Positions 27,196-43,679 of a stretch of DNA of 64,000 nucleotides are shown one piece after another (the stretch's first letter is position 1; each line of letters opens with the position of its first letter). Source of the DNA: Luteimonas mephitis DSM 12574 (lineage in GTDB: Bacteria; Pseudomonadota; Gammaproteobacteria; Xanthomonadales; Xanthomonadaceae); the NCBI RefSeq assembly GCF_000422305.1, contig NZ_AULN01000013.1, positions 248,001-312,000 on the forward strand, given 5' to 3'. The notes under the pieces are model-generated. The model was given only the letters and a program-made list of their open reading frames with translations, was not told the origin of the DNA and made no database searches. The translations under genes and the position numbers were made by a program.

Positions 27196-27867
27196 ATGGC
27201 CTCGACCATCCTCGTCGCCGACGACCACCCGCTGTTCCGCGAAGCCCTGCGCGGCGCGGTGCAGCGCGTGCTGCCCGACGTACAGTTGCGCGAGGCCGAG
27301 GACGTCAATGAGCTGTATGCACTGGTCGACGCCGAGCCCGACGCCGACCTGCTGCTGCTCGACCTCAACATGCCCGGCGCACAGGGGTTTTCCGCGCTGG
27401 TGCACCTGCGCGCGCTGCACCCGCAACTGCCGATCGTGATGGTGTCCGCGCGCGAGGAACCGGCGGTGATGCGGCGCGCGCTCGACCACGGCGCGATGGG
27501 CTTCATCCCCAAGTCCGCCGACGCCGCCACGCTGGGCGAAGCGATCACCCGCGTCCTCGACGGCGACCGTTGGGCCCCCGCCGCCGCGCACGCCGCGCCC
27601 GCTGCTTCGGCCGACGAACATGACGCCGCCCAGCGCCTGCAGGGCCTCACCCCGCAGCAGTTCCGCGTGCTGCAGATGCTCGGCGAAGGCCTGCTCAACA
27701 AGCAGATCGGCTACGAACTCGGCGTGTCGGAGGCCACCATCAAGGCGCACATGACCGCGATCCTGCGCAAGCTCGGCGCCAGCAACCGCACCCAGGCGGT
27801 GCTGATCGCCGGCCGGCTGGCGCTGGAGCCGGGGGCGGTGAAGCCGCAGCCGGAAGAAGGCGAGTAG
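27196..27867 (+). CDS. crbR: LuxR/NarL-family response regulator, CrbR-like
   Basis: 223 residues: receiver domain (acidic pair DD at 9-10, phospho-acceptor Asp56 in LLLLDLNMP, Lys in FIPKSAD) and a C-terminal LuxR HTH (LTPQQFRVLQML, LGVSEATIKAHMTAILRKL). In Vibrio, Pseudomonas and relatives a regulator of this type, CrbR (also called ErdR/AgmR-like), works with the symporter-fused kinase CrbS to turn on acs. Here the gene directly follows acs, and a CrbS-like kinase is encoded at 45767-49216. Its last ~90 bases are duplicated at 29225-29312. Symbol is assigned by context and kinase type; no kinase gene is adjacent. Confidence 0.8.
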   Translation: MASTILVADDHPLFREALRGAVQRVLPDVQLREAEDVNELYALVDAEPDADLLLLDLNMPGAQGFSALVHLRALHPQLPIVMVSAREEPAVMRRALDHGAMGFIPKSADAATLGEAITRVLDGDRWAPAAAHAAPAASADEHDAAQRLQGLTPQQFRVLQMLGEGLLNKQIGYELGVSEATIKAHMTAILRKLGASNRTQAVLIAGRLALEPGAVKPQPEEGE

Positions 27868-28049
27868 GAGCGGCGCGGCAATCAGTTTGCGGGGGACCGA
27901 TTCCGCCCCCTTCCGACCATCCCCTTTGGCCCCTGGCGCCCTGATTCGACGGGCATGGATGATTTTTGGCCGGAACCGCGAGCATCCGGCGATTACCTGG
28001 CTGCAATGGGGCGATGACCTGCCATCCATGACCTGCCCGGAGAACTCCA

Positions 28050-28958
28050 ATGACCGCTACCCGCCTTCTCGCCGCTCCGCTCCTGATCGCCTGTGTGCTG
28101 TTGATCCCCACCTATGCCAAGGCTGCGCAGAGCTACGACAACTGCACCAACTTCATCGATTCGGTCCCCGCCACGATCAGTTCCCAGGGTGTCTGGTGCC
28201 TGCGCAAGGATGTCTCCACCGGAGTCACCAGTGGCAATGCCATCAACATCCAGACCAACAACGTCACCATCGATTGCAATGATTTCAAGCTGGGCGGACT
28301 GTCGGCAGGCAGCGCGTCGCAGGCTTCCGGTATCCGGGCGGATGGCCGCCAGAACATCACGGTGCGCAACTGCAATGTTCGAGGCTTCTATTACGGCATT
28401 CTTCTGGTTGGTGGCGCCGGGCACCTGGTCGAGGGCAACCGCCTGGACAACAATCTGTCCATCGGCATCGCTGCATCGGACGCCAGCAACAGCATCGTCC
28501 GCGGCAATCGCGTGTACGACACCGGTGGTTCCCCCGATAACTCCACCCGCTCCGGGATCTACAGTTACGGTGGGGATGCGGTCGAGGTGGCCGACAACAT
28601 CGTCGCTGGCGTGGCCGGTACCCCGGGGTACTACAACGCCGTGGTCGGGATCATCCGGGGCAACTATGTCAGCGGCTTGAACCGTACAAGCGCACAGATT
28701 ACCGGCAACAGCATTTCCGGCCTGGCGCCTACGGGCACCGGCATGACGGCGCATGGCTTCACGAACACGAACTATGGCAACACAGCCGGCCGCATCCTGT
28801 TTGCCGGAAACAATCTCTACATGACGTCGACGGTTGCCAATTCAGTTGGAATCAAATGCACCTATGGCGGCGTGTCCATCCGCGACAACAACATCATCGG
28901 ATTCCCTACCGGGTTCGACGGCACCTGCTGGGACGATGGCGGCAACGTCGTACACTGA
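28050..28958 (+). CDS. Secreted right-handed parallel beta-helix protein, array copy 1
   Basis: 302 residues. Signal peptide LLAAPLLIACVLLIPTYAKA, then the family core: SYDNCTNFIDSVPATIS, GVWCLRKD, NNVTIDCNDFKLGGL, NCNVRGFYYGI, GAGHLVEGNRLDNNL and NRVYDTGGSPDN. Regular spacing of N-x-hydrophobic-x-G steps indicates a right-handed beta-helix (PF13229 type) capped by cysteine pairs. The family resembles polysaccharide-binding or -cleaving folds but no lyase or hydrolase catalytic residues can be named. Its C-terminal third differs from the other copies. GGAGAACTCCA precedes the ATG. It is the first of three tandem relatives on this strand and begins 182 bases after the response regulator gene. 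Function unknown; secretion across the inner membrane is well supported. Confidence 0.8.
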   Translation: MTATRLLAAPLLIACVLLIPTYAKAAQSYDNCTNFIDSVPATISSQGVWCLRKDVSTGVTSGNAINIQTNNVTIDCNDFKLGGLSAGSASQASGIRADGRQNITVRNCNVRGFYYGILLVGGAGHLVEGNRLDNNLSIGIAASDASNSIVRGNRVYDTGGSPDNSTRSGIYSYGGDAVEVADNIVAGVAGTPGYYNAVVGIIRGNYVSGLNRTSAQITGNSISGLAPTGTGMTAHGFTNTNYGNTAGRILFAGNNLYMTSTVANSVGIKCTYGGVSIRDNNIIGFPTGFDGTCWDDGGNVVH

Positions 28959-29224
28959 ATCAAGAACCAGGAACATCCCCGTGCAAGGCGGGCGACGACG
29001 CGCGTTGCGTGCTGGCACGCGCGGCGTGAGCTCCCGAATCCGCGACATTCCGGCATGTCGACGGATGCGTGCAATGTGCGAAATCTTCGCGGCCAACTGA
29101 AGCATTCGATCACCGGCGCAGGCCGCGGAGTTGCCTCAGCCCACCCGCATCCCTCGGGCCAGGATTGCCCCTGCGATCCCTTTGGCCATCCTTCCGAGGT
29201 GCGAGCTGCCCCTGGCACCATTTC

Positions 29225-29312
29225 CGATGCTGGTCGCCAGCCGGCAGATGCTGGAGCCGGGAGCGATCAAGCCGCAGCCTGAGGAAGGCGAACAGGAGCG
29301 GCCGGGCAATCG
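29225..29312 (+). pseudogene. Duplicated 3' end of the response regulator gene
   Basis: About 88 bases match the end of the regulator gene at 27797-27884 and its first downstream bases. Translated in the same frame it reads LVASRQMLEPGAIKPQPEEGE against LIAGRLALEPGAVKPQPEEGE (last 20 residues), and the following bases aggagcgg..gggcaatc match aggagcgg..cggcaatc after the real stop. The stop codon TAG has become CAG. There is no promoter or start, so this is a dead fragment. It shows that array copy 2 arose by duplication of a unit starting inside the regulator gene (offset 1428 bases). Bases 28959-29224 hold no recognisable gene. Confidence 0.82.
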
Positions 29313-29505
29313 ATCGTCCCTTGCGGACACGCGTTGGCGGACCCCGGCGTATGGATGCGGGAGACGCCAGTGCGGGCCACGTGCCCGGAGGCAATCGGTT
29401 TCCTGCGAGGCGGTGGCAGTCACCGGCCCCTTTCGGCGATATGACAGGAGGCCCAGGCCCTGTCGGCCGCGGCCTGCCTGCCACCATCCCGGGAAGACCA
29501 TCGTC

Positions 29506-30351
29506 ATGTCCAGTCTCTATCGCCTGCTTGCCGCAGCGCTCGTCCTAGGCAGCCTGTGCTTCGTGCCTGGCACCATCCGTGCCGCCGAGAGCTATGACAG
29601 CTGCACCGGCTTCATCGACTCGGTACCCGTCACCATCACCACGCAAGGTGTGTGGTGCTTTCGCAAGGACCTGAGCACCAACATCACCGACGGAAATGCC
29701 ATTACCATTGCCACCAACAACGTCGCCATCGACTGCAACGACTTCAAGCTCGGCGGACTGGCGGCGGGCGACGGTTCCAAGGCCAGTGGAATCTACGCCA
29801 AAGATCGCAGGAACACCGTCGTGCGTCACTGCAACGTGCGTGGGTTCCATGTTGGCATCGATATCTTCAGTGGTGCAGGGCATTTGATCGAGGACAATCG
29901 TCTCGACAACAACTTGCTTGCCGGAATTCGCATATTGGGCGGCATCGGCAGCCTTGTGCAACGCAATCGGGTGTACGACACCGGCGGCGCTCCGGATGGC
30001 AGCCCCATCTACGGCATGAATGTTTCGGCGGATGTAATCGACAACGTAGTGGAAGGGGTGTTTGTAGTCGCGAAGAACGGCTATGTGTACGGCATTGTCC
30101 TGTATGCCCCTGGTGCCTTGGCACGCAACAACCATGTGAGCGGGTTGGTCGCCGCTGGTACCGGTAAGGCTGGCGGGATGTTCTCCGGTACCACGGGAAT
30201 GACCCTCGACGGCAACCAGATCATCTCGACCGCAGCAATCACGGGGAGCGGCATCGCGGGCGCTTCCAGCGCCTGCCGAAACAATACCGTCTCCGGATTT
30301 TCGGTCGCGGCTTCCAATTGCCAGGACGGCGGCGGAAACGCGGGCATGTGA
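29506..30351 (+). CDS. Secreted right-handed parallel beta-helix protein, array copy 2
   Basis: 281 residues. Signal peptide LLAAALVLGSLCFVPGTIRA, then SYDSCTGFIDSVPVTIT, GVWCFRKDL, NNVAIDCNDFKLGGL, HCNVRGFHVGIDIF, GAGHLIEDNRLDNNL, NRVYDTGGAPDG, and a C-terminal helix end with one Cys (ASSACRNNTVSGF) and a final NCQDGGGN. Closest to copy 3 in the first two thirds. GGGAAGACC lies a few bases before the ATG at 29506; the frame continues far upstream but only as the regulator-tail remnant. It shares an upstream block (tggcagtca...cgatatgac) with copy 3, so promoters were probably duplicated too. Function unknown. Confidence 0.8.
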   Translation: MSSLYRLLAAALVLGSLCFVPGTIRAAESYDSCTGFIDSVPVTITTQGVWCFRKDLSTNITDGNAITIATNNVAIDCNDFKLGGLAAGDGSKASGIYAKDRRNTVVRHCNVRGFHVGIDIFSGAGHLIEDNRLDNNLLAGIRILGGIGSLVQRNRVYDTGGAPDGSPIYGMNVSADVIDNVVEGVFVVAKNGYVYGIVLYAPGALARNNHVSGLVAAGTGKAGGMFSGTTGMTLDGNQIISTAAITGSGIAGASSACRNNTVSGFSVAASNCQDGGGNAGM

Positions 30352-30592
30352 TGCGCGGGATCATTGGCCCGCGGGATCCTGCGCGTGTCCAGTATTCGCA
30401 AGCATGGCGCTTGCGCGATTCCCACATCACCCCTCGAAGCATCGGAGAAGGCGTGCGCGTGCGCATTCGAACGGCGGGCGTGACGCCTTCGCCGACCGAT
30501 GGCAGTCATCGGGTCCTTTCATCGATATGACGGAAAGCACAGGCAACCCTGGTCCTGGCTCGACTGCCACCACCCCCGAGGAGACCGCCCTC

Positions 30593-31435
30593 ATGTTCGA
30601 TTCCCACCGCCTGCTTGCCGCAGCGCTTGTCCTTGGCAGCCTGCTTCTCCTGCCGGGCATTGCCCACGCCGCACGGAGCTACGACAGTTGCACCGGCTTC
30701 GTCGACTCGGTGCCCGCCACCATCACCACACCGGGCGTATGGTGTCTGCGCAAGGACCTGGGCACCAGCGTGACCAGCGGCAACGCCGTCACCATTGCCG
30801 CGAACAATGTCACCCTCGATTGCAACGACTTCAAGCTGGGCGGGTTGGAGGCGGGCAAAAGATCCAGTACCCGTGGTATTCGTGCCGGCAATCGCCAGAA
30901 CGTCGCCGTGCGTCACTGCAACGTGCGTGGTTTCCACGTTGGTATCGATATTTTTGGCGGAGCAGGGCACTTGGTCGAGGACAATCGACTCAACGGCAAC
31001 CTGTATGTCGGCATTTCCGTGCACGGCGAGAACAGCCTCGTGCGGCGCAACCGGGTGTATGACACCGGCGGAGCCGTGGACAGCAGCTACTCCTACGGCA
31101 TCCTCAGCAAGGCGAGTGTCATCGACAACACGGTGGATGGGGTTTTCGCAATGGCGGCGGATGCTTCTTCGCGCGGCATCGAGCTCTATGGCCGTGGCCG
31201 CATAGTCCGAAACAACCAGGTGCGCCGGCTGACCACGGCTGGTGCCGGCACTGCCGTCGGCATTAGTTCCGACAGCCCAACGATGGTCTGCGACGGCAAC
31301 CAGGTGATCTCGAGCTATCCGATAAGCGGAACGGCCATCAACGGTTCCAGCGGCTTTTGCCGGAACAACACCGTGGCCGGGTTCTCCACCCTGATCACGA
31401 ACTGCGACGACGCCGGCGGCAACGTGAACCTCTGA
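30593..31435 (+). CDS. Secreted right-handed parallel beta-helix protein, array copy 3
   Basis: 280 residues. Signal peptide LLAAALVLGSLLLLPGIAHA, then SYDSCTGFVDSVPATIT, GVWCLRKDL, NNVTLDCNDFKLGGL, HCNVRGFHVGIDIFGG, GAGHLVEDNRLNGNL, NRVYDTGGAVDS, ending GFCRNNTVAGF and NCDDAGGN. GAGGAG is 9 bases before the ATG at 30593. It converges with the large unknown gene that ends at 31511. N-terminal two thirds are conserved with the other copies, while the turns after the YDTGG motif are variable, which suggests that the exposed side loops diverge fastest. Confidence 0.8.
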   Translation: MFDSHRLLAAALVLGSLLLLPGIAHAARSYDSCTGFVDSVPATITTPGVWCLRKDLGTSVTSGNAVTIAANNVTLDCNDFKLGGLEAGKRSSTRGIRAGNRQNVAVRHCNVRGFHVGIDIFGGAGHLVEDNRLNGNLYVGISVHGENSLVRRNRVYDTGGAVDSSYSYGILSKASVIDNTVDGVFAMAADASSRGIELYGRGRIVRNNQVRRLTTAGAGTAVGISSDSPTMVCDGNQVISSYPISGTAINGSSGFCRNNTVAGFSTLITNCDDAGGNVNL

Positions 31436-31468
31436 ATCGAAGCGGGCCGGCTCTCATGCCCTCGTCCA

Positions 31469-31484
31469 TCCCGGCTTGCCGGGA
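31469..31484. terminator. Short hairpin between convergent genes
   Basis: TCCCGGC-TT-GCCGGGA forms a perfect 7-bp stem between array copy 3 (ends 31435) and the convergent unknown gene (ends 31511). There is no T run on either strand, so the role as a bidirectional terminator is tentative. Confidence 0.35.
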
Positions 31485-31510
31485 GAGTCACGGAAGCCCA
31501 TGTTCCCCGC

Positions 31511-33637
31511 CTATCCTGCGTCGCGGATGGCCAGCTTCCCGGGCGTGTTGGCGCCGGTGTCGAGCATGAGGCCGAGCAGGTCCTGCCCGAGGCCGGCGGC
31601 GTGGAAATCGTTGGCCACCACCTGGAACACTTCGTCAGGCGTGCCCGCCAGGGCCAGGCTCTCGATGAGGTTGGTGCCGCCCATGTCCTGCGATTCCAGC
31701 GCTTCGAGGCGGTCGCTGCGGTAGCTGTCGGACTGCATGAAGTCGCGCGCGTTGCTGCGCAGTTGCATGAGGTCGGCCTCGGTGAATTCCAGCCTCGCGT
31801 GCTGGTCGCCGTCGAAGTTCGCCTGCCTCGCATTTGCGAGGTTGTCCGGGTCAATCCGGTAGCTGTCCTGCAGATACGACGCCGATGCCTGGTCGTAGTT
31901 GGCCAGCATCAGGCTGTACGCCAGGCTGCCCGGCACGCGTTGGCCGGAGGCGTCGGTGGACCAGCTCACCTGCGCGTGGTGGTCGTCGCCCATCCGCACG
32001 GAGTTGGTGTAGTCGGCGCTGCCGTCGGCCCAGGTGGTCTGGACCATGTTGAACTCGCTGCTGTTGATCTGCGTGCCCCAGCTGAAGCCGCCGAGTTCGA
32101 CGCCGAAGCGCGCGTCGTGCTGGCCGTTGAGGATTTCGGTCGTCCCGGATTGCGGCACGCCCGGAGGCGACCACGACGGCACCTGGCCGGTGCTGATGAA
32201 AGCCTGGTAGGCGGCCTGGCCCTCGGCGGTGCGCAGATCGATGCGTGCCACCGACATTGAACGATCCTCGAGGCTCTTGTCGACGCTCACGCCCACCGAC
32301 GCCATGCCGCGGTAGCCGAGGCCGGCGAACAGGTCGTTCTCGACGGTGTCGATGTCGCCGGCCACGACTTCGACGGTGTGTTCGTCGATGCGCTGCACGC
32401 CGAAGCCCTGGCCCTCGAGGTCACGCGACTCGCCGTTGAGGTGGAAGGCCTTGTAGTTGGCTTCGAACTGGCTGCCGGTGAGCGTCTGGCCGCGGATGAG
32501 CACGCCGGTGCCGATCGCCATCGCCATCGGGTCGAGCGGGTCGGGCGCGGCGGACAGGTCGCCGTCGGCGATGCGCGCGCCCTGTTCGGGCGTGACCACG
32601 GCTTCATAGGTGAGCCGCGTGCCGGCGAACTGGCTGTAACTTCCCGACACCGGGATCGGCAGGCCCTTGACCACGCTGCGCAGCAACGGCGAACCGTTGA
32701 CCAGGTCCTGTGCGCCCTGCGGCAGCGCGCCGAGCTTGCCGGCCCATTCGTACATGCGGTTGAGCGGCGTCCGGCCCACCGCGACGGTGGCCGCGCCCTG
32801 GGCTTCGACCGACATCTCGAAGGTCTGGGTCTGGTTGAAGTCGATGCCGGTCTGCACGCCGGACATCTCGACTTCGCCGATGACGCGGATGTCGGCGCTT
32901 GCGCGCACCGGCGTGGGCAGCGTGGCTGCGCCGGCCACGGGCGTTTCGAAGCGCACCTGCTGGCCGGGATTGATCGCCAACGCGAAGACGCCGTCGGGCA
33001 GGGTGCCGAGGATGTCGTAGCCGGCCTGGATCTGTTCTGCAGTGGGGTTGGCCGGCAGCTCGACGCCAAGCACCGCCAGCGCGTCCGTCATCTGCCCCAG
33101 GTCGAGGCGCGCGGCATCGCGCGCCATGTCGCCGCCGGAGGCGAGATAGGCGGGTACGGTTTGCGGCGACGCTGCCGATTCATCGACGATGCGGCGCAGC
33201 TCCTGCACGTACGGATCATTGTTGTAGGCGCTGATCGCGTCGCGATGTTCCATTGCCGCGGTCGGGCCGTTGAGCCCGGCGTAATCCGACAGCTGCGGCG
33301 CCAGGCGGTCGAGTGCGGCCTGCGCCTGCGCGCCGCGGCGCTCGTTGAAGGCTTCAACGCGCGCGCCGTAGATCGAGCTGCGCGCGTCATCGGGCAGGCC
33401 GCGGGGCAGGTCGTTCGCGGTGGGCAGCGCGAGCGCGTGGATGGACTCGACGGCCTGGGCGGGGGTCGCGGCGTTGGCGAAGGTGACTGGTTCGGTTGCA
33501 GCGACGGTGGCCGCCGGCACCGGTTCCGCAGCCCCGGAGTCCGTCTGCGCCTGCTCGAAACTGCGGCGCACCGCCTGCTGGTCCTCCGGTGGGAGTGTCC
33601 GATAGGTTCGGTTGTCGATGCCGTAGATCTCGGACAT
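31511..33637 (-). CDS. Large protein of unknown function at the centre of the beta-helix array
   Basis: 708 residues, not recognised. No signal peptide, lipobox or membrane helix is visible. Residues 1-60 are polar and Ala/Pro-rich; residues ~80-190 look helical (AYNNDPYVQELRRIVDES); from about 220 to 560 the sequence alternates hydrophobic and polar residues and reads as mostly beta (ADIRVIGEVEMSGVQTG, RLTYEAVVTPEQGARI, GVQRIDEHTVEVVAGDID, GYRGMASVGVSVDKS); the C-terminal ~100 residues are helical again. The start at 33637 (MSEIYGIDNRTY) was preferred over 33667 because it has AGGG upstream and no extra weak segment. Its position between oppositely oriented arrays of secreted proteins suggests a surface or interaction role, but nothing in the sequence proves it. 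Confidence 0.6.
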   Translation of the reverse strand: MSEIYGIDNRTYRTLPPEDQQAVRRSFEQAQTDSGAAEPVPAATVAATEPVTFANAATPAQAVESIHALALPTANDLPRGLPDDARSSIYGARVEAFNERRGAQAQAALDRLAPQLSDYAGLNGPTAAMEHRDAISAYNNDPYVQELRRIVDESAASPQTVPAYLASGGDMARDAARLDLGQMTDALAVLGVELPANPTAEQIQAGYDILGTLPDGVFALAINPGQQVRFETPVAGAATLPTPVRASADIRVIGEVEMSGVQTGIDFNQTQTFEMSVEAQGAATVAVGRTPLNRMYEWAGKLGALPQGAQDLVNGSPLLRSVVKGLPIPVSGSYSQFAGTRLTYEAVVTPEQGARIADGDLSAAPDPLDPMAMAIGTGVLIRGQTLTGSQFEANYKAFHLNGESRDLEGQGFGVQRIDEHTVEVVAGDIDTVENDLFAGLGYRGMASVGVSVDKSLEDRSMSVARIDLRTAEGQAAYQAFISTGQVPSWSPPGVPQSGTTEILNGQHDARFGVELGGFSWGTQINSSEFNMVQTTWADGSADYTNSVRMGDDHHAQVSWSTDASGQRVPGSLAYSLMLANYDQASASYLQDSYRIDPDNLANARQANFDGDQHARLEFTEADLMQLRSNARDFMQSDSYRSDRLEALESQDMGGTNLIESLALAGTPDEVFQVVANDFHAAGLGQDLLGLMLDTGANTPGKLAIRDAG

Positions 33638-33839
33638 GGCGGCGCCCTGGTTCGCGAATACGGACAAGGTAGCGACGGCGTGGTCGCCGTGGCATTCGGG
33701 TTGACCCTAGGTCGGCTGCGCGCGGGCATCGACGCAGGCAAGCGCGCACCGTTGCTCCGCTGTCAGCCTGCCGGGTGTTTCATGGCGAGGTGACTCGTTG
33801 CGATTACCCCCCCGCCGCCTTACCGATCTCACGCCGCGA

Positions 33840-34523
33840 TCACGGCAGGGTCAGATTGTCGAGGCTGCGCGTGCAGTCGGCATAAGCGATGCTGAAATTG
33901 ACCACGGTATTGCCGGTGCAGAAGGTGTTGGCGTTGCCCCCGTCAATCCCATCGCCCGCGGTCATCGCCGTGGCTGAAACATGGTTGTCGGCAACTCTGG
34001 CGCCGCTACTGTTTTCAGTAATCCCATACGCAGTGCCAGAGCCTGTCGCTACCAGTTCGTGCACCCGATTGCGCGTTACATAGCCACGGCCGCGTGCGTA
34101 AATTCCAATCACCATAGCATTCGCATAAGTTGAAAATACCCCGGCCACGGTGTTTTCGATCACGTCCGCATAGCCAACGATGCCCCAGCTGCGATAATCG
34201 TGAGGAGCACCACCGGTGTCGTAAACCCGGTTGCGCTGAACCCGATTGTTCTCGCCGGAAACGTTGATCCCCACGCGCAGGTTGTTGTCCAGGCGGTTGT
34301 CCTCGACCAGGTGGCCCGCGCCGCCATCGAGACTGATTCCGTAGTAGAACCCACGCACGATGCAGTGCCACACGGTGGCGTTCTGGCGGTTGTCTGCATA
34401 GATGCCATTGGCCAGCGAAGCATTCCCCGCTGCCAGCCCGCCGATCTTGAAATCATTGCAATCGATGGTTACGTTGTTGGCGTTGATGGTGATGGCGTGC
34501 AGGCTCCATCGCCTGCCAGCCAT
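33840..34523 (-). pseudogene. 5'-truncated beta-helix gene, array copy 4
   Basis: From about 34498 downward it is clearly a relative of copy 5 (ITINANNVTIDCNDFKIGG, GISLDGGAGHLVEDNRLDNN, VQRNRVYDTGGAP, FCTGNTVVNF), but the first ~64 codons, including the signal peptide and the SYDNCTGFIDSV/WCLRK segment, are missing. The open frame begins with an unrelated MAGRRWSLH and the 90 bases between it and the end of copy 5 hold no such sequence. Without a signal peptide the product could not be exported, so it is treated as a pseudogene, although the remaining 218 codons are intact, indicating that the deletion is recent. Confidence 0.75.
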
Positions 34524-34586
34524 GGCGGCAACAGGGCAACAGAGGGGCGCGCCGGCATGCCGCCCTGCTCGACGCCCTGCACATGA

Positions 34587-35441
34587 TCACGGCGCCGGCA
34601 GGTTGCCGAAGCTGTACTCACAGCTGTGATAAGCCGTCGTGAAGTTGACCACGGTGTTGCCGGTACAGAAGGTGTCGGCGCCGGCTCCGTCGATTCCCAG
34701 GCCCTTCGTCATCGTCGTCGCCGAAATCCGGTTGCCGGCAACAGTGAGGCCGGACCTTGTTACCACGATCCCAAACACAAAGCCCGAGCCTGTCAACGCC
34801 AGCCCCCGCACCTGGTTGCCACGGATCTCGCTGCCGGGAGCGGATGCGTAGATGCCCCAGACGGTATCTGTCGCAGTCGCGGTTGCAACTACCCCGGCCA
34901 CGGTATTGTCGATGATGTCAGCAGCCGCCAGGATGCCGGTCATCGCACCAGATCCGCCATATCCGCTGGTGTCGTAGACCGCATTGCGGCGCACTCGATT
35001 GTTGTCGCCGGAAACACTGATTCCGGTGCGCAGGTTATTGTCCAGGCGGTTGTCTTCGACCAGGTGGCCCGCGCCGCCATTGAGACTGATCCCCCGGAGG
35101 AACCCGCGCACGTTGCAATGCCGCACGGTGACGTTCTGGCGGCTACTGGAGTAGATGCCATTGGCCTGCGAAGCATTTCCCGCGGCCAGCCCGCCGATCT
35201 TGAAATCGTTGCAGTCGATGGTGACGTTGTTGGCGCTGATGGTGATGGCATTGCCGCTGGTGTTGGCGGTACTGACATTCTTGCGCAGGCACCACACCCC
35301 GGCCGTGCTGATGGTGGCAGGCACCGAGTCGATGAAGCCGGTGCAGTTGTCGTAGCTTTGCGCGGCACGCGCGGTGCCGGGCAGGAGACAGAGACCGCCG
35401 AGGGCGCAGGCGGTGACGAGCAGGTAGCGGATGGTGTGCAT
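34587..35441 (-). CDS. Secreted right-handed parallel beta-helix protein, array copy 5
   Basis: 284 residues. Signal peptide YLLVTACALGGLCLLPGTARA, then SYDNCTGFIDSVPATIS, GVWCLRKNV, NNVTIDCNDFKIGGL, HCNVRGFLRGISLNGG, GAGHLVEDNRLDNNL, NAVYDTSGYG, and a C-terminal FCTGNTVVNFTTAYHSCEY. It lies on the minus strand, in mirror orientation to copies 1-3. GGGGAAACC lies before the ATG. The N-terminal two thirds match copy 1 as well as copy 3, while the C-terminus is shared with copies 4 and 6, so minus-strand members form their own subgroup. Function unknown. Confidence 0.8.
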   Translation of the reverse strand: MHTIRYLLVTACALGGLCLLPGTARAAQSYDNCTGFIDSVPATISTAGVWCLRKNVSTANTSGNAITISANNVTIDCNDFKIGGLAAGNASQANGIYSSSRQNVTVRHCNVRGFLRGISLNGGAGHLVEDNRLDNNLRTGISVSGDNNRVRRNAVYDTSGYGGSGAMTGILAAADIIDNTVAGVVATATATDTVWGIYASAPGSEIRGNQVRGLALTGSGFVFGIVVTRSGLTVAGNRISATTMTKGLGIDGAGADTFCTGNTVVNFTTAYHSCEYSFGNLPAP

Positions 35442-35473
35442 GAGCGGTTTCCCCGATGGCGATGGCAGTCACG

Positions 35474-35494
35474 CCTCGGTCGGAATGACCGAGG
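35474..35494. promoter_or_regulatory. Hairpin upstream of array copy 5
   Basis: CCTCGGTC-GGAAT-GACCGAGG is a perfect 8-bp inverted repeat about 32 bases upstream of the copy 5 ATG, in the leader or promoter. It could be an operator or a 5' UTR hairpin. It is not obviously present before the other copies. Confidence 0.35.
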
Positions 35495-35717
35495 TTTGCC
35501 GGTGCTATCGCCAGATCTCGCAAGATCCGGCCATGTGCCTTGCAGCGGAACGTGCGGGGAGGTCGGCGGAGATGGGTGGTCCGGCGATCACCGTGGCGAG
35601 ATCGCGCTGGCGAGCCACGGACCGCGGTGCAGGCGCCGTCATCCGGATGCGCCTCGGCGGCAACACAACAGCAACACCGTGCCTGCCACCCTCACCCCGC
35701 CCGATGCCAGGCACATA

Positions 35718-35880
35718 ATGACGGCGCCGGCAGGTTGCCGAGTCCTCAATGGCAGCCGGAACAAGCGGTTGTGAAGCTGATCACCGTATTGCCGGTGCAG
35801 CAAGGTGTGGGAGCCGGCTCCGGAAATGCCATGGTCTGTCGTCCCGGTCGTTGCCGAAACATGGTGGTCGGTGACCTTGG
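35718..35880 (-). pseudogene. Degenerate 3' remnant of a beta-helix gene, array copy 6
   Basis: On the minus strand this stretch matches the last ~130 bases of copy 5 and the bases after it: TGCACCGGCAATACGGTGAT aligns with the codons of CTGNTV, FTTA follows, and the shared GGCAACCTGCCGGCGCCG ends it. One extra base in the first conserved block shifts the frame and a stop (TGCCATTGA) occurs before the normal end. Upstream only weak similarity persists to about 35880, close to the end of the glycosyltransferase gene. The region 35495-35717 between this remnant and copy 5 has no gene I can recognise. Confidence 0.75.
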
Positions 35881-35914
35881 CACTCGCCTGCCTTGCGTAG
35901 AGCCCACCGTGGTT

Positions 35915-36829
35915 TCACGTCCGGCTCGGCTGCCTGCGGCGCGCCCTCAGCTTCCGGTGGAGATCCAGCAATCCGGTGGGCGCGAACGTCGCGAGCCAGA
36001 ACAGCAGCGCCTCGGGCATCCCGTGTCGGGCCGGGGCGCCGAGCATGGCGCGTGCGGCGCGCAGGTTCCGGTGATGCAGCAGGTCGCGGCCGAAGGCGAG
36101 CTGGATGGTGCGGCGCTTGCGGCACACGCGCGCGGCGTCCATGCCGAGTTGTGCATGCAGGCGGTCGATGTTGTCGAGTTCACCACGCGCGCAGCGTTCG
36201 ATCTGGCGGGTGATGCTGTTGGCGGCTGGGGTGTAATGGATCAGCGACGCGCTGTCGGCAGCGGCGGTCCAGCCCGCGGCCAGCAGGCGCAGCCAGAGGT
36301 TGTAGTCCTCGGCGCCGATCAGCGCGCGATCCTCTTCGAACCCGCCCACAGACGCGAAGGCCTCGCGGCGCACAACGGCGGCCGACGTGCGGACCCAGTT
36401 GAGCTGCCACAGGTCGTCGAAACCGGGCGTCGCAGGTGCGGGCCGGCCGTTCTTCGTGGGGCTGTCCAGAAGCAGTCCGGTTTCGGGCCCGGCTACAAGC
36501 CGGAGCTGGCGCGCCATCTTGTCTGCAAGCCAGGCGTCGTCGGCATCGAGGAATGCCAGCCAGCGCGACGATGCGAGGCGTGCAGCCGCGTTGCGCGCAG
36601 CGCCTGGCCCGCGATTGTCCTGTTCGACGAAGCGCACCGTAGGCGCGTGTCGCCGGGCGATGGCCTTGCTTGCAGCGGTGTCGGAGGAGCCATCGTCGAC
36701 GACGATGATCTCGGCCGGCGGCACGCTCTGGGCCAGCGCGCTGAGCAGGGCGCGCTCAAGGGTGGTCGATGCGTTGAAGCACGGAACCAGCACGCTGTAG
36801 TCGTGTGTCGTTTCAGGGAGGGGATGCAT
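35915..36829 (-). CDS. Family 2 glycosyltransferase
   Basis: 304 residues of GT-A fold: YSVLVPCFNASTTLERAL at the start, the nucleotide-sugar motif IIVVDDGSSD, acceptor DADDAW as the DxD metal site, and the GGFEEDRALIGAEDYNLWLRL segment with the conserved ED-x(2)-W used by inverting GT2 enzymes. The C-terminal ~90 residues are basic and helical. No membrane segment, so cytoplasmic. Start at 36829 is the ATG with GAGAG upstream; an ATG at 36853 would add 8 residues. It is alone, without other polysaccharide genes; whether it glycosylates the neighbouring surface proteins or serves cell-surface glycan synthesis is open. Confidence 0.8.
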   Translation of the reverse strand: MHPLPETTHDYSVLVPCFNASTTLERALLSALAQSVPPAEIIVVDDGSSDTAASKAIARRHAPTVRFVEQDNRGPGAARNAAARLASSRWLAFLDADDAWLADKMARQLRLVAGPETGLLLDSPTKNGRPAPATPGFDDLWQLNWVRTSAAVVRREAFASVGGFEEDRALIGAEDYNLWLRLLAAGWTAAADSASLIHYTPAANSITRQIERCARGELDNIDRLHAQLGMDAARVCRKRRTIQLAFGRDLLHHRNLRAARAMLGAPARHGMPEALLFWLATFAPTGLLDLHRKLRARRRQPSRT

Positions 36830-37061
36830 TGGGGCGCTCTCGTTGGCACGCATGCAGGTGCGGTGTCTGGCCAGAGGTCTCCGCTGGTCAACGGATGAAC
36901 GGGCGGGAAGCGGGCACGCGGCGCGAGCGCTCGTCGGGACGATGCACGGGAAGAGGGGCCGGCGGCGCATGCTGACGATGCCGCTTCGTCTGGGTAGTGC
37001 AGCGACGGGTGCGCGCGCGGCCCGTGTGCAGCCGGTCCGCGATCGTGCGGGGTTGCCGCGT

Positions 37062-37215
37062 TCAGTTCACGGATGAAGGGGTGGCAAGGTGGCGCTGCGC
37101 CGCCAGGACCGCCCGCAGCGACGCCGGCTGGATTGGCTTGGTCAGCACCCGGTAGCCGCGCGCGGGCGGCCTGCTCGAGGGCGTCGCTGCCATCGCCGGT
37201 GAGCAGGGCGCCATG
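37062..37215 (-). pseudogene. Frameshifted fragment of a hybrid-kinase receiver domain (CrbS-like C-terminus)
   Basis: The minus strand encodes GALLTGDGSDALEQAARA and, in another frame, GYRVLTKPIQPASLRAVLA, matching GALVTADGSDTLKQAARA and GYRVLTKPIKPASLRAFLA at the C-terminus of the full kinase at 45767-49216. Relative to that gene two bases are missing inside the Arg-rich ARARG codons (cgcgcgcggg versus cgcgtgcgcggg), which breaks the frame. No kinase, PAS or symporter part is present upstream, so it is a dead fragment. Flanks 36830-37061 and 37216-37426 hold no gene I can support. Confidence 0.8.
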
Positions 37216-37426
37216 GAGCCGCAGCCGGACGAACTCGAGCAGTCGCCGCCGTCAGGCAGCATGGATCCGCCGGCTGTACGAACGGCGCCGCGGTTCCGCA
37301 TCGTCACGCCCGGCCGTGCGCGCGTGCACGACCGACACGGCGATCGTTGATGCAGCCACGCGGCCCTCACTTGCACGGTGCTACATCGGAGGCCCCCACA
37401 ACGGCCTTGCAGGCCAGGAACGTGCC

Positions 37427-37912
37427 ATGGGCGACCCCCGCGAACTTGAAGAAAAATTCTGGAAGGCGCTGGAAAGCGACCGCACCGTCATGCTGGGCCT
37501 GGACGGCCGGGAGCAGGGCCATTGCCGGCCGATGACCGCGCAGGCCGAGGACCGGCGCACGCCGATCTGGTTCTTCACCTCGCGCGACAACGCGCTGGTG
37601 CAGGCGCTGGCCGGCGGCAGCGGGCCGGCGATCGCGGGCTTCGCCTCCAAGGGCCACGATCTGTTCGCGAGCATCCGCGGCACGTTGCGCGAGGACACCG
37701 ACCGCGCGGTCGTCGAGCGGCTGTGGAACCCGTTCGTTGCCGCCTGGTTCGAGGGCAAGGACGACCCGAAGCTGCGGCTGCTGCGCCTGGATGCCGCGGA
37801 GGCGGAGGTGTGGATCGACGCATCCAGCTTGCTGGCAGGCGTGAAGATGCTGCTCGGCATGGACCCGAAGGAGGACTACAAGGACAAGGTCGGCGACGTC
37901 GACCTGCGCTGA
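37427..37912 (+). CDS. General stress protein, FMN-binding split barrel (pyridoxamine oxidase-like)
   Basis: 161 residues of the PF16242 type (general stress protein 26; Xanthomonas citri has a structurally studied relative that binds FMN). Features: ELEEKFWKALESDRTVML, the flavin-contact segment RPMTAQAEDRRTPIWFFTS, and FASKGHDLFASIRGTL. Catalytic activity is unknown for the family; the fold binds flavin rather than oxidising pyridoxamine phosphate. AGGAA lies 8 bases before the ATG. It is followed after 4 bases by the repair operon, so it may be the first gene of that transcript. Confidence 0.85.
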   Translation: MGDPRELEEKFWKALESDRTVMLGLDGREQGHCRPMTAQAEDRRTPIWFFTSRDNALVQALAGGSGPAIAGFASKGHDLFASIRGTLREDTDRAVVERLWNPFVAAWFEGKDDPKLRLLRLDAAEAEVWIDASSLLAGVKMLLGMDPKEDYKDKVGDVDLR

Positions 37913-37916
37913 CGCG

Positions 37917-38918
37917 ATGCCGTCGCGCGCCGATGACCTGGTCATCGCCTCGCCGGAGGGCCTGTACTGCCCGGCGGGCGGCTTCCACATCGACCCGTCG
38001 CGCCCGGTGCCCGTGGCGGTCATCACCCACGGGCACGGCGACCACGCCCGCAGCGGAATGGGCACCTACCACGTGGCGCGGGAAGGCCTGCCGATCCTGC
38101 AGTGGCGGCTCGGCAAGCAGGATTACCGCGTCCATCCGGCCGGTGAACGATTCAGGATCGGCGGCGTGCAGGTGTCGTTGCATCCCGCGGGGCACGTGCT
38201 GGGTTCGACCCAGGTGCGGATCGAAGCCGGCGGCGAAACCTGGGTGGTGTCGGGCGACTACAAGCGCGACCCCGACCCGACCTGCCTGCCATTCGAAGTC
38301 GTGCACTGCGACGTGTTCGTCACCGAGTCGACGTTCGCGCTGCCGATCTACCGGTGGGCGCCGGCGAGCGACGTGGCGCGCGACATCGAGGCCTGGCGGG
38401 TGGAGTGCGAAGCACAGGGAGAGGCCGCGATCCTGTACTGCTACGCGCTGGGAAAGGCGCAGCGCGTGCTGGCCGAACTGGCGCCGATCAGCCCGCGCCC
38501 CGCACTGCTGCACGGCGCGATCGACGCCGGGGTCGCGGTATACCGCGATGCGGGCGTGGAAATGCTGCCCACGCAGCGGGTGAGCGAGCTTGCGCGCGAT
38601 GCCGACGTGGCCGGCGCGCTGGTGCTGGCGCCGCCGTCGGCGGCAGGCAGTCCCTGGATCCGGCGCTTCCGCCGCGCGCAGCAGGGCTTTGCGTCGGGCT
38701 GGATGCGCATCCGCGGCAATCGGCGGCGCCGCAATCTCGATCGTGGCTTCGTGGTGTCCGACCACGCCGACTGGCCGTCGCTGCTGCGCACGGTCGAGCA
38801 GACCGGCGCGCGGCGCGTGGTGGCCATGCATGGCGACAGCGCCGCGCTGGTGCGGGTGCTGTGCAGCCGCGGCCTGGACGCGGCGACACTGGATGCCGGC
38901 TACGGCGAGGACGACTGA
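37917..38918 (+). CDS. Ligase-associated DNA exonuclease (metallo-beta-lactamase/SNM1-like)
   Basis: 333 residues. MBL-fold nuclease with the metal motif THGHGDHA, later His in HPAGHVLGS, Asp in VSGDYKRD and His in SDHADW, as in the beta-CASP-like family linked to ATP-dependent DNA ligases. N-terminal segment DDLVIASPEGLYCPAGGFHID is characteristic of this subgroup. Its stop codon overlaps the ATG of the ligase gene (TGATG), showing translational coupling. By gene-neighbourhood knowledge it forms a four-part DNA repair cassette with ligase, Lhr-type helicase and PdeM. Probably processes DNA ends before ligation; the exact substrate is not established. Confidence 0.92.
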   Translation: MPSRADDLVIASPEGLYCPAGGFHIDPSRPVPVAVITHGHGDHARSGMGTYHVAREGLPILQWRLGKQDYRVHPAGERFRIGGVQVSLHPAGHVLGSTQVRIEAGGETWVVSGDYKRDPDPTCLPFEVVHCDVFVTESTFALPIYRWAPASDVARDIEAWRVECEAQGEAAILYCYALGKAQRVLAELAPISPRPALLHGAIDAGVAVYRDAGVEMLPTQRVSELARDADVAGALVLAPPSAAGSPWIRRFRRAQQGFASGWMRIRGNRRRRNLDRGFVVSDHADWPSLLRTVEQTGARRVVAMHGDSAALVRVLCSRGLDAATLDAGYGEDD

Positions 38919-40528
38919 TGCGCCGCTTTGCCGCGCTGTACGAACGGCTTGACCGCAGCACCGGGACCGGCGACAAGCGCCGTGCGCTGGTCGACTACTT
39001 CCGGCAGGCGCCGGCGGCCGATGCGGCCTGGGCGGCATGGCTGCTGTCGGGCGGCAAGGTCGGCGGCGCGCGCGCGCGCATTGCGTCCGGCGGCGAGCTG
39101 CGCGCATGGGCAGCGGCCGAATCCGGTTTGCCGGACTGGCTCGTGGAGGACTGCTACCACCAGGTGGGGGACCTGGCCGAAACCCTGGCCCTGCTGTTCG
39201 ACGACCCGGCGCCTGCGCAACTCGCGCCGGACGCGGGACTCGCGCAGTGGATCGAAACGCGGCTGGCGCCGCTGGCCAATGCCGACGAGGCGCCGCGCCG
39301 CGCACTGGTGGTCGGGGCTTGGCGAAGCCTGCGCTTCGGCGAGCGGCTGGTCTTCAACAAGCTGCTGACCGGTGCGCTGCGCGTGGGCGTGTCGCAAGGC
39401 CTGGTGCAGCAGGCGTTGGCTGCGTTCTCCGGGGTGGAGATCGCCCTGCTCGCCCAGCGCATGCTCGGCACGTGGACGCCGGATGCCGCGTTCTTCGAAG
39501 CGCTCGTTTCGCCCGAACCACAGCCCGGCGACGGGCAGCTGCCGTATCCGTTCTTCCTCGCGTCTCCACTGGAAGCTTCGCCCGAATCGCTGGGCGACGT
39601 GCGCCAGTGGTGGCTGGAGTGGAAATGGGACGGCATTCGCCTGCAGGTGCTACGCCGGGCCGACGGCGTGGTGCTGTGGTCGCGCGGCGAGGAACGGATG
39701 GATGGGCGCTTCCCCGAGATCGAGGCCGCCGCCGCTGCGCTCCCGGCCGGCTGCGTGCTGGACGGGGAGCTGCTGGCCTGGCGACCCGGCGCCGCGGAGC
39801 CGCTGCCTTTCAGCGTCCTGCAGACCCGCATCCAGCGCCGCAGGCCCGGGCCGAAGACACTGGCCGACGCGCCGGTACGCGTGCTGGCCTATGACCTGCT
39901 GGAGGAGGACGGGCAGGACCTGCGCGCGCTGCCGCTGGCGCAGCGGCGTGCGCGCCTGGCGGCGCTGTTGGAAGGATGCGACACGGACCGGCTGGCGCTG
40001 TCGCCGCGCCTGGCCGCCGACGACTGGACCAGCGCGTCTTCGCTGCGCGACCAGGCGCGCGCGCTGGGCGTGGAGGGACTGATGCTCAAGGCTGCGCAGT
40101 CGCCCTACCGGCACGGGCGCAAGCGCGGCGACTGGTGGAAGTGGAAGGTCGATCCGCTCAACGTCGACGCGGTACTGCTTTACGCGCAGTCCGGCCACGG
40201 GCGTCGCAGCACGCTGTTCACCGACTACACGTTCGGGCTCTGGGACGGCGGCGCGCTGGTGCCGGTGGCGAAGGCGTATTCCGGCCTGGACGACGCCAGC
40301 ATCCTGCGCCTGGACCGCTGGATCCGCGCGCACACCCGCGAGCGCTTCGGCCCGGTGCGCGCGGTCGAGCCGGTGCAGGTGTTCGAGCTGGGGTTCGAAG
40401 GCGTGAACCGCTCGGCCCGCCACAAGACGGGGGTCGCGGTCCGGTTCCCGCGCATCCTGCGCTGGCGAGAGGACAAGTCCGCGGCCGAGGCGGACGCGGT
40501 CGACCGCCTGCGGGCGCTGGCGCGGTGA
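38918..40528 (+). CDS. ATP-dependent DNA ligase (Lhr/exonuclease-associated)
   Basis: 536 residues. N-terminal DNA-binding domain (residues 1-195), then adenylation domain with the AMP-lysine motif EWKWDGIRLQ, motif III VLDGELLAW, motif IV EGLMLKAAQSPY and motif V WWKWKVDP, then an OB-fold ending near FGPVRAVEPVQVFELGF. This is the stand-alone bacterial LigB/LigC-like type, not LigD (no polymerase or phosphoesterase domain) and not NAD-dependent LigA. Overlaps both neighbours (TGATG upstream, GTGA downstream). Seals nicks in repair together with the other three proteins of the operon. Confidence 0.93.
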   Translation: MRRFAALYERLDRSTGTGDKRRALVDYFRQAPAADAAWAAWLLSGGKVGGARARIASGGELRAWAAAESGLPDWLVEDCYHQVGDLAETLALLFDDPAPAQLAPDAGLAQWIETRLAPLANADEAPRRALVVGAWRSLRFGERLVFNKLLTGALRVGVSQGLVQQALAAFSGVEIALLAQRMLGTWTPDAAFFEALVSPEPQPGDGQLPYPFFLASPLEASPESLGDVRQWWLEWKWDGIRLQVLRRADGVVLWSRGEERMDGRFPEIEAAAAALPAGCVLDGELLAWRPGAAEPLPFSVLQTRIQRRRPGPKTLADAPVRVLAYDLLEEDGQDLRALPLAQRRARLAALLEGCDTDRLALSPRLAADDWTSASSLRDQARALGVEGLMLKAAQSPYRHGRKRGDWWKWKVDPLNVDAVLLYAQSGHGRRSTLFTDYTFGLWDGGALVPVAKAYSGLDDASILRLDRWIRAHTRERFGPVRAVEPVQVFELGFEGVNRSARHKTGVAVRFPRILRWREDKSAAEADAVDRLRALAR

Positions 40529-43005
40529 CGCCCGGTCCCCGCCCGCGCGCCGGGCCGCAGGCGCCGCTGCTGGCGTGGTTCGACCAGCGCGGGTGGCGCG
40601 CCGCCCCGTTCCAGCGCGAAGCCTGGCGGCGCTACCTGGCTGGCGACAGCGGCCTGCTGGTCACGCCGACCGGCAGCGGCAAGACCCTCGCGGCGCTGGG
40701 TGGACCTTTGCTCGAAGCGCTGCGGCTGGGCGACGCGCCGCCGCGCAAGCGGCGCGGCGTGCCGCTGCCGCCCCGCCTGCGCGTGCTGTGGATCACGCCG
40801 TTGCGCGCGCTGGCCGCCGATACGGTGCGCGCGATGTCCGAGCCGATCGCCGGTCTCGGCGTGCCGTGGACGGTGGCGATGCGCACCGCCGACGCCAGCG
40901 CCGGCGACCGGCGGCTGGCGCAGGCCGGCCATGCCGACGTGCTGGTGACGACGCCCGAATCGTTCGCGCTGTCGCTGTCCTACCCGGACTCGCCCACGCG
41001 GCTTGCCGGCGTGCGCGCGGTGGTGGTGGACGAGTGGCACGAACTGCTCGGCAACAAGCGCGGCGTGCTGCTGCAGCTGGGCCTGGCGCGGCTGCGCGCC
41101 ATCGCCCCGGGCGCGCGCATCTGGGGCCTGTCGGCGACCCTGGGCAACCTGGCGCAGGCGCGCGACGTGCTGCTGCCGCACGCACCGTCGGCGCCGATCA
41201 TCGCCGCGCCGCGCCGACGCCCCACGCTGGAGACATTGCTGCCCGCTGCGGGCGAGCGATTCCCGTGGGCCGGTCACCTCGGCCTGTCGCAGCTCGCGCG
41301 TGTGACCGCGGTACTGCAGCGTGCCCGCAGCAGCTTGTTGTTCACCAACACCCGCGCGCAGGCGGAGCTGTGGCACAAGGCCCTGCAGTCGGTGTGGCTG
41401 GATGCGCCGGAAACGCTGGCGCTGCACCACGGCTCGCTCGACGCCGGCCTGCGCGCGGCCGCCGAGGCGGGTTTGCGCGACGGCAGCGTGCGCTGCGTGG
41501 TCGCCACCTCCAGCCTGGACCTGGGCGTGGATTTCCCGGCCGTCGACCAGGTGCTGCAGGTCGGCAGCCCCAAAGGGGTGGCGCGCCTGCTGCAGCGCGC
41601 CGGCCGCGCGCGCCACCGCCCGGGCGAAACGGGGCACGTGGTGTGCGTGCCCACGCATGCGCTGGAGCTGGCCGAATACGCCGCTGCGCGCGTGGCCCTG
41701 GCGCACGACCGGATCGAAGACCGGCCGCCGCCGCGGCTGTCGCTGGACGTGCTGGCGCAGCACTGCGTGACCCTGGCGCTGGGCGGTGGATTCGAGCCGG
41801 AGGCGCTGCTGGCCGAGGTGCGCGACACCGATGCGTTCCGCGGCCTGGACGAAAGCGCCTGGCAGGCAGTGCTCGACTTCATCGTGCGCGGCGGCGGCGC
41901 GCTGGAGCATTACCCCGACTACCACCGCGTGGTGCGCGACGACGACGGCGTCTACCGCGTGCATGACCGCCGGGTGGCGTTCCGGCACAGGCTGTCGATC
42001 GGCACCATCGGCAGCGACGGCAGCGTGCAGGTGCGGTTCGCCAAGGGCGGGCACCTGGGCAGCGTCGAAGAGGCCTTCGTCGCCCGGCTCAAGCCGCGCG
42101 ACCGTTTCCAGTTCGCCGGTCGCACGCTCGAGCTGATGCAGCTCAAGGACATGACCGCGTATGTGCGCCTGGCAACAGGCGGCGAAGGCCTCGTGCCGCG
42201 CTGGCAGGGCGGGCGGATGCCCCTGTCCACGGCGCTGGCGGCCGAGGTGGAGGCGATCCTGGCGAAGCCCGCGGGCAGTCCCGAGATGCGCGCGCTGGCT
42301 CCGCTGCTGGCCTTGCAGGCCGGGCTGTCCGCGCTGCCTGCCCCGGACCGCTTGCTGGCCGAGGCGCTGCGCACGCGCCAGGGCTGGCATCTGTTCCTGT
42401 ATCCCTTCGCCGGACGCGCGGTGCACGAGGGCCTGGCTGCGCTGCTGGCATTGCGCTGGGCGCGCAGCGCGCCGAACAGCTTCACGTGGGCGGTCAACGA
42501 CTACGGACTGGCGCTGACGGCGCAGGCCGAGACCTGGCCCGCGCCCGGACAGCTCGAACGGCTGCTTGCGCCGGAGCATCTGCTGGATGACCTCGAGGCC
42601 AGCCTCAACCTTGCCGAATTGGCGCGCCGCCAGTTCCGCGACGTGGCGCGCGTGGCCGGCCTGCTGCCGCCTTCGCTGCCCGGCCGGGCGGCGCGGTCGC
42701 TGCGCCAGCTGCAGGCCTCGAGTGGCCTGCTGTTCGACGTGCTGTCGCGCCACGATCCGGGCCATGTGCTGCTCGCCCAGGCCCGGCGCGAAGTGCTGGA
42801 GCAGCAGCTTGAGGTGCGCGCGCTCGACGCCACGCTGCGCGCGTGCGGCCAGCGCAGGATCGTGCTGCGTCGGCCGCGCGGGCTCACCCCGCTGTCGTTC
42901 CCGCTGTGGGCCGAGGCGCTGCGCGGGCAGCTGAGCACGGAGGACTGGCGCACGCGCGTGCAGCGTGCCGCCGTGCGACTGGAAGCGGACCATGGACGCG
43001 CTTGA
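40525..43005 (+). CDS. Ligase-associated DExH-box helicase (Lhr-Core family)
   Basis: 826 residues, the short Lhr-Core form. Motifs: Q region FDQRGWRAAPFQREAW, Walker A TPTGSGKT, motif Ib TTPESFALSLS, DExH box VVVDEWHE, SAT motif LSATLGN, motif IV LLFTNTRAQAE, motif V ATSSLDLGVDFPAVD and motif VI QRAGRARHRPGE. The C-terminal winged-helix and beta-barrel part follows. GTG at 40525 overlaps the ligase stop (GTGA); no ATG is close. Lhr proteins are 3'-5' translocases on DNA with RNA:DNA unwinding activity. Its gene position defines the ligase-associated subgroup. Confidence 0.93.
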   Translation: MTPGPRPRAGPQAPLLAWFDQRGWRAAPFQREAWRRYLAGDSGLLVTPTGSGKTLAALGGPLLEALRLGDAPPRKRRGVPLPPRLRVLWITPLRALAADTVRAMSEPIAGLGVPWTVAMRTADASAGDRRLAQAGHADVLVTTPESFALSLSYPDSPTRLAGVRAVVVDEWHELLGNKRGVLLQLGLARLRAIAPGARIWGLSATLGNLAQARDVLLPHAPSAPIIAAPRRRPTLETLLPAAGERFPWAGHLGLSQLARVTAVLQRARSSLLFTNTRAQAELWHKALQSVWLDAPETLALHHGSLDAGLRAAAEAGLRDGSVRCVVATSSLDLGVDFPAVDQVLQVGSPKGVARLLQRAGRARHRPGETGHVVCVPTHALELAEYAAARVALAHDRIEDRPPPRLSLDVLAQHCVTLALGGGFEPEALLAEVRDTDAFRGLDESAWQAVLDFIVRGGGALEHYPDYHRVVRDDDGVYRVHDRRVAFRHRLSIGTIGSDGSVQVRFAKGGHLGSVEEAFVARLKPRDRFQFAGRTLELMQLKDMTAYVRLATGGEGLVPRWQGGRMPLSTALAAEVEAILAKPAGSPEMRALAPLLALQAGLSALPAPDRLLAEALRTRQGWHLFLYPFAGRAVHEGLAALLALRWARSAPNSFTWAVNDYGLALTAQAETWPAPGQLERLLAPEHLLDDLEASLNLAELARRQFRDVARVAGLLPPSLPGRAARSLRQLQASSGLLFDVLSRHDPGHVLLAQARREVLEQQLEVRALDATLRACGQRRIVLRRPRGLTPLSFPLWAEALRGQLSTEDWRTRVQRAAVRLEADHGRA

Positions 43006-43636: not shown

Positions 43637-43679
43637 CGAGCAGCCGGATATGAAGTCAACACCTGTCCCGGAGAACGAC

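Follow-up and report, generated by a model that had tools for sequence, protein, structure and literature searches.

Right-handed beta-helix proteins usually bind their ligands on sheet PB1, which carries the ligand in many such enzymes and tailspikes. The Pfam family PF13229 (Beta_helix), a broad structural family without a single function, groups proteins with this fold and a ladder of asparagines at the turns. Here, a stretch of 64,000 nucleotides from Luteimonas mephitis DSM 12574 (the window; contig NZ_AULN01000013.1, positions 248,001 to 312,000, forward strand) was analysed, in which six genes for beta-helix proteins (copies A to F) lie in two facing series. They share the fold and the asparagine ladder with PF13229 proteins. 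Among the closest solved folds are the alginate lyase 6kfn and the mannuronan C-5 epimerases AlgE4 and AlgE6, which differ from the family in that identity in the rows of the fold alignment is only 13-16% and that the family has no outward PB1 residue common to all copies. The phage tailspikes HK620, Sf6 and CBA120 have the same fold and include glycan-binding members, but the family proteins are shorter, chromosomally encoded and preceded by a signal peptide. A search with copy E against 50,697 phage records and one with A and E against PHROGs gave no match.

The genes form a family of predicted beta-helix fold that has grown by tandem duplication, varies at three register positions of PB1, is enriched in tyrosine at two of these and is patchily present among genomes. 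We give an even chance to the proposal that they constitute a genome-encoded repertoire of exported single-domain recognition proteins with a variable binding face on PB1. The scaffold, consisting of the helix core, the asparagine ladder and a large part of the two remaining sheets, would stay constant, whereas the outward PB1 residues of successive coils would make up a binding face unique to each copy. New members would arise by tandem duplication, sometimes with a copy of the end of a neighbouring gene, and would then diverge, some of them decaying.

Copies in the window and predicted fold

The six copies are as follows.
Copy A, 28050-28958, plus strand: intact, 302 amino acids, signal peptide by eye, predicted right-handed beta-helix; PF13229 score 47.8 bits (cut-off 25.9)
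Copy B, 29506-30351, plus strand: intact, 281 amino acids, signal peptide by eye; PF13229 score 37.1 bits; 61.1% identity to C
Copy C, 30593-31435, plus strand: intact, 280 amino acids, signal peptide by eye; Pfam scores slightly under the cut-offs
Copy D, 33840-34523, minus strand: 5'-truncated, lacking about the first 61 residues including the signal peptide; reading frame open over 227 amino acids
Copy E, 34587-35441, minus strand: intact, 284 amino acids, signal peptide by eye; AlphaFold2 model with a mean predicted local distance difference test score of 90.6
Copy F, about 35695-35871, minus strand: 3' remnant only, sharing 74.6% identity with the 3' end of E and 73.3% with that of D

Based on profile matches and the structural model, these genes are members of a lineage-expanded family and probably encode exported single-domain right-handed beta-helix proteins. 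The cut-off of PF13229 was passed by A, B, D (32.2 bits) and E (41.1 bits). Copy C is not listed for this profile, yet it is 61.1% identical to B and comes near the cut-offs of PF12708 (24.5 against 27) and PF05048 (22.3 against 23.6). The model of E is a confident right-handed beta-helix, and the right-handed parallel beta-helix that characterizes PF13229 is thus present by prediction. Each coil contains one PB1 strand of the form x-G-I-x-v-x. From their sequences, the proteins are expected to be exported and to contain disulfides. The fold as such is ordinary. Membership in the NosD family (TIGR04247) was considered and rejected (A 34.6 and E 32.1 against a cut-off of 300), and no nos genes were found among the neighbouring genes that were named.

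Variation on the PB1 strands

Positions in PB1 were numbered with the glycine as 0, and positions -1, +2 and +4 are referred to as PB1-out. Entropies were determined for 67 intact genes, after omission of 17 of the 84 compiled copies because of stops, splits or odd length. In coils 2-8, the three PB1-out positions exceeded all others among the 24 register positions listed in variability (3.41, 3.65 and 3.57 bits for -1, +2 and +4, respectively), followed at a distance by a position with 2.89 bits; the glycine and the isoleucine gave 0.44 and 1.05 bits. None of the 24 PB1-out positions along the protein was conserved at 85% or more in these genes. In a set of 120 proteins, the top-ranking among 1344 homologues of E and including E itself, the PB1-out positions again stood apart, with 3.34 bits compared with 1.42 bits for the outward positions of the other two sheets (PB2/PB3-out) and 1.32 bits for the rest.

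The same pattern is found within the window. When the four intact copies were compared at the 24 PB1-out positions, coil 1 included, 119 of 144 comparisons differed, as against 587 of 1371 for the rest of the protein. In the N-terminal half, the values were 54 of 72 for PB1-out, 19 of 72 for PB2/PB3-out and 205 of 750 for the rest. None of 5000 permutations reached the PB1-out value, either for the whole protein or for the N-terminal half. The initial annotation of this DNA had placed the variation in the C-terminal turns. The C-terminal half is indeed less alike, median pairwise identity of the intact copies falling from 67.9% over residues 29-165 of E to 33.1% over residues 166-284; however, the variation is not confined to it, because the PB1 positions read as outward vary in the conserved N-terminal half as well.

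Since strands alternate and the isoleucine and the following v position would point inward, +2 and +4 are expected to point outward, with -1 at the preceding turn, so that the variable residues would form one outward face.

Composition of the putative face and a sister subfamily

The PB1-out positions also have an unusual composition. Tyrosine makes up 21% of the residues both at -1 and at +2, compared with 3.0% for the mature proteins as a whole and 4% for PB2/PB3-out. Phenylalanine, tryptophan, tyrosine and histidine together reach 31.7% at -1 and 38.2% at +2, compared with 8.7% and 17.8%, respectively. Free drift in a GC-rich genome (GC, guanine plus cytosine) would not be expected to yield so much tyrosine. 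Ligand binding and a diversity of ligands are suggested by these sequence features. Glycans or foreign cell surfaces appear the most likely ligands, glycans in particular because PB1 is the ligand-carrying sheet of many beta-helix enzymes and tailspikes and aromatic residues are common there.

A related group of proteins provides a comparison.
Sister subfamily, locus L049 (5700-6599) and P0226-P0301: the 76 proteins at the head of a list of 120, sharing 52-100% identity with the C2_434k copy

This 434k-type group was initially considered as a set of orthologues, but genomes G000 and G026 share no flanking gene, and it was therefore called a subfamily. On PB1 of coils 6-8, its members have a tyrosine in 72, an arginine in 65, a tryptophan in 67, an aspartate in 61 and a second arginine in 73 of 76 cases. 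These largely fixed residues are a candidate single binding or active site. At matched identity (60-70%), the sister subfamily is less variable on PB1 than the expanded one (0.588 against 0.828). One subfamily has therefore kept part of this putative face constant, and the expanded one has diversified it.

The fixed residues of the sister subfamily could also belong to an active site, which leads to the alternative that the family is a radiation of active enzymes (polysaccharide lyases, hydrolases or epimerases), in which the specificity of each copy, together with its catalytic residues, would reside on PB1. The nearest folds, which include alginate lyases, C-5 epimerases and glycosidases, fit this idea, as does the score of copy C just below the threshold of the pectate-lyase-like profile PF12708. 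Enzyme families normally keep their catalytic set, however, and none of the 24 PB1-out positions reaches 85% conservation in the 67 intact genes. Catalytic PB1 residues common to all members were not found; a site in part of the copies is conceivable. Overall, we regard an enzyme radiation as unlikely, although it is the strongest of the competing explanations.

Rates of change

A count by the method of Nei and Gojobori, in which nonsynonymous change at PB1-out was divided by synonymous change over the gene, gave a ratio of 2.15 (bootstrap 1.87-2.51, 22 pairs). This apparent positive selection was judged to be an artefact, because the GC content at third positions is 0.91 in the set from G158, a genome of another genus described below, and synonymous counts saturate at low values. 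Codon models, which allow for GC-rich third positions, were used instead. Over all fits, the ratio of nonsynonymous to synonymous rates (omega) was 0.20-0.72 at PB1-out and 0.06-0.24 in the rest. Six paralogue pairs analysed under three frequency models gave 0.36-0.72 at PB1-out, 0.09-0.22 in the rest and 0.08-0.22 at PB2/PB3-out, with PB1-out values of 0.24 in the N-terminal and 0.72 in the C-terminal half. For five more distant pairs from G158, whose distances lie at the bound of the fit, omega was 0.20 at PB1-out and 0.06 in the rest. A model with two classes was preferred over a one-class model, with twice the log-likelihood difference amounting to 31 to 123 in the paralogue sets and to 22 in sister-type pairs. 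The acceleration at PB1-out was 2.6- to 4.6-fold over the rest in the paralogues. Acceleration of the PB1-out face is established by these fits; strict positive selection is not. The selection for diversity put forward in the initial annotation consequently keeps indirect support, in that the variation lies on one putative face rich in tyrosine at two of its three register positions, but lacks the formal kind, since omega stays below 1.

Several observations weigh against a diversified binding face. An omega of 1 was rejected downward in all four sets (twice the log-likelihood difference 13.7 to 53.2), and since every fit remained below 1, the raised change could also reflect weak constraint. 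The sister subfamily, too, changes faster on PB1 than elsewhere, though less so (ratio 1.7-1.9 against 2.1-3.4). Aromatic residues at +4 make up 17.8%, equal to the PB2/PB3-out control, with tyrosine at 9%, and tyrosine, threonine, valine and isoleucine favour beta strands in general. On PB1 of coil 1, variability is lower (1.7-2.3 bits in the set of 120 homologues), and in the C-terminal half of the window copies the contrast is weaker, with differences in 65 of 72 comparisons at PB1-out, 51 of 72 at PB2/PB3-out and 382 of 621 in the rest. The outward orientation is deduced from the strand pattern rather than from model coordinates. The register positions were picked after the entropies had been viewed in the same family, the set of 120 proteins being a mostly separate sample, and the controls (PB2/PB3-out positions and the sister subfamily) all come from within the family.

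The first two of these points are also what would be seen if PB1 simply tolerated change and the copies were drifting duplicates on their way to loss. The decay of D and F and the interruption of 9 of the roughly 49 copies in G158 agree with this explanation. It sits poorly with the strong purifying selection on the remainder of the proteins (omega 0.06-0.24), with the PB2/PB3-out residues, which change at the rate of the rest, and with the tyrosine excess at -1 and +2, and we consider it improbable.

Organization and origin of the cluster

The arrangement given in the initial annotation was borne out, with three intact copies (A, B, C) on the plus strand and one intact (E), one 5'-truncated (D) and one remnant copy (F) on the minus strand, separated by a single unrelated gene. 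Its view that a beta-helix protein, probably exported and variable in an exposed part, has expanded locally also stands, in a family larger than it had seen. All-against-all comparison yielded 49.1-61.1% identity among the four intact copies, above the 25% that had been set as the lower limit for an expansion; at only 49-61%, however, a recent expansion of these six copies is unsupported. DNA repeats among the copies reach 62-84% identity over hundreds of bases, beyond chance. Of the sequence blocks listed as shared, NRVYDTGG occurs in A, B and C, but E has NAVYDTSG, and C has FVDSV instead of FIDSV. The two series do face each other, although they are better read as two tandem series than as the mirror image left by one palindromic event.

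Other features of the locus are listed below.
Response regulator gene, 27196-27867, plus strand: conserved left flank; best NCBIfam match ErdR, at 255.4 bits below the cut-off of 390
Copy of the regulator 3' end, 29225-29311, plus strand: between A and B; 82.8% identity over 87 bases to 27797-27883
Unrelated gene between C and D, 31511-33634, minus strand: 707 amino acids
Hybrid histidine kinase gene, 45767-49510, minus strand: 17.9 kb from the regulator here

The copy of the regulator 3' end (83% identity) between A and B suggests that the step from A to B probably occurred by tandem duplication and included the end of the preceding regulator gene. D, E and F are in tandem with one another, the DNA at 33838-34496 being 73% identical to that at 34585-35249. 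Elsewhere in the same genome, locus L048 (5144-8531) contains a 1.7 kb tandem unit made up of a family gene and a piece of a neighbouring PF00814 gene, with identities of 92% and 87%; on sequence grounds, this duplication represents the same process as the A-B step at a more recent stage.

In six of eight relatives (G013, G016, G018, G021, G005 and G007), the hybrid histidine kinase comes after the regulator, no more than about 2.6 kb away; the regulator stretches fetched for G004 and G008 did not show the kinase. None of the ten regulator-locus stretches from these eight relatives contained a match to the family, so the six copies are not fixed at this site. In G021 and G005, the gene that separates the two series is found some 17-22 kb from the regulator, in another place of the neighbourhood and in the opposite relative orientation. 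It probably moved to its present site and is not a fixed partner; in these two relatives, it is not located beside family copies. The XVIPCD domain known from type IV effectors is present in two distant homologues of this gene. PADLOC profiles for anti-phage defence gave no match for A, E or this gene.

The window has a GC content of 62-75% in 2 kb steps, in an assembly of 3.4 Mb. The interval 27867-45767 also contains a gene for a family-2 glycosyltransferase without a counterpart at 1e-40 among the 36 other genomes that were searched. Also in this interval are a weak match to metallo-beta-lactamases, a helicase of the Lhr type that weakly matches a phosphoesterase, and a photolyase.

Distribution and turnover

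The genome of L. mephitis contains 14 stretches matching A (two of them weaker than 1e-3), 13 matching E and 13 matching the family profile, fragments included. Within the genus, 32 of 36 other genomes have no match at 1e-3, and the remaining four have four stretches (G005), three (G026), two weak ones (G004) and one (G029). In a survey of 297 genomes from the taxonomic family, with at most eight candidates scored per genome, 27 genomes (the own genome included) match at 1e-10. G124 has 12 matching stretches. The largest set is found in G158, a single-contig genome of 3.9 Mb from another genus, whose 55 stretches were counted as about 49 genes in about 23 places; the other two genomes of that genus have one match and none at 1e-10. 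Nine of the G158 copies (loci L171-L186) are interrupted, three by an in-frame stop and six by a frame shift, owing to decay or sequencing error.

A tree of 81 rows (8 of 89 were left out) mixes the genomes, with 30 changes of genome label compared with a minimum of 12 and a shuffled mean of 37.2, although the bootstrap does not settle it. This mixing suggests that some duplications are old and others specific to a lineage. A family gene lies convergent beside purL in G000, G158 and G124 (L045, L171 and L182), which belong to three genera, so some sites appear to be old, with differing occupants. L157 and L186 likewise share a site for a family gene, beside a phosphotransferase and a nucleotidyltransferase gene (an AmgK/MurU-like pair). 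Gene conversion was considered through long identical runs, which exceeded site shuffles in 36 of 861 pairs in G158, 8 of 66 in G124 and 3 of 45 in G000, the shuffle ignoring blocks of conserved sites, and through the nearest neighbour, which was identical for both protein halves in 22 of 81 rows.

No partner gene common to most of 35 stretches from four genomes was detected by blastp; a few sets of two or three loci have neighbours in common (purL, a sulfotransferase, or the phosphotransferase and nucleotidyltransferase pair). This bears on the idea that the proteins are immunity or inhibitor proteins that counter variable competitor toxins. An array of exported, divergent paralogues is reminiscent of immunity arrays, and the XVIPCD domain in homologues of the gene between the series would be in keeping with such a role. 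With no neighbour common to most stretches, and with that gene lying away from family copies in the two relatives inspected, we consider this highly improbable, the least probable of the explanations weighed.

A set that is patchy, multi-copy, variable and partly decayed could also consist of surface proteins that change so as to evade phages, predators or recognition, in which case the face would be a target and not a binder. No switch was seen, however. Among 76 upstream regions, no word occurred in more than about one quarter, those exceeding shuffles including GGAGAAC (similar to a ribosome site), CGGCAAC and CACCTGC, so that none is common to most copies. Phase variation was considered because four G158 copies break near one place, but by eye these are different small insertions or deletions outside slippage tracts, and the clustered breaks may reflect decay or sequencing error. 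A C-terminal anchor was not seen by eye, and the tyrosine-rich composition at two positions seems unlike that of an evasion surface. Antigenic variation is, on balance, doubtful to about the same degree as drift under weak constraint.

Comparison with known recognition repertoires

Some Xanthomonadaceae might thus encode repertoires of exported beta-helix binders, numbering up to about 49, with an antibody-like, tyrosine-rich PB1 face, each copy recognizing another glycan or foreign surface; in this full form, the proposal is tentative and rather less probable than a variable binding face as such. In the titles and abstract openings screened, no bacterial beta-helix repertoire with a tyrosine-rich variable PB1 face was described. 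If the proposal holds, such a repertoire together with a sister subfamily with a fixed site would permit a direct test of how a protein of single specificity turns into a repertoire, and the family would offer a natural, ready-made collection of small beta-helix binders.

Most known repeat repertoires with a variable face come from animals and plants. In leucine-rich-repeat recognition repertoires, such as the variable lymphocyte receptors (VLRs) of lampreys, a constant repeat scaffold carries variable residues on one sheet, in many units. Cassette assembly as in VLRs was not seen in the family, no search having been aimed at it, and omega values above 1 were not obtained (0.20-0.72 at PB1-out). 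Concentration of the variation on one face, as read from the strand register, is common to both. The fold of the family differs from that of the leucine-rich-repeat proteins, but this concentration suggests the same way of working.

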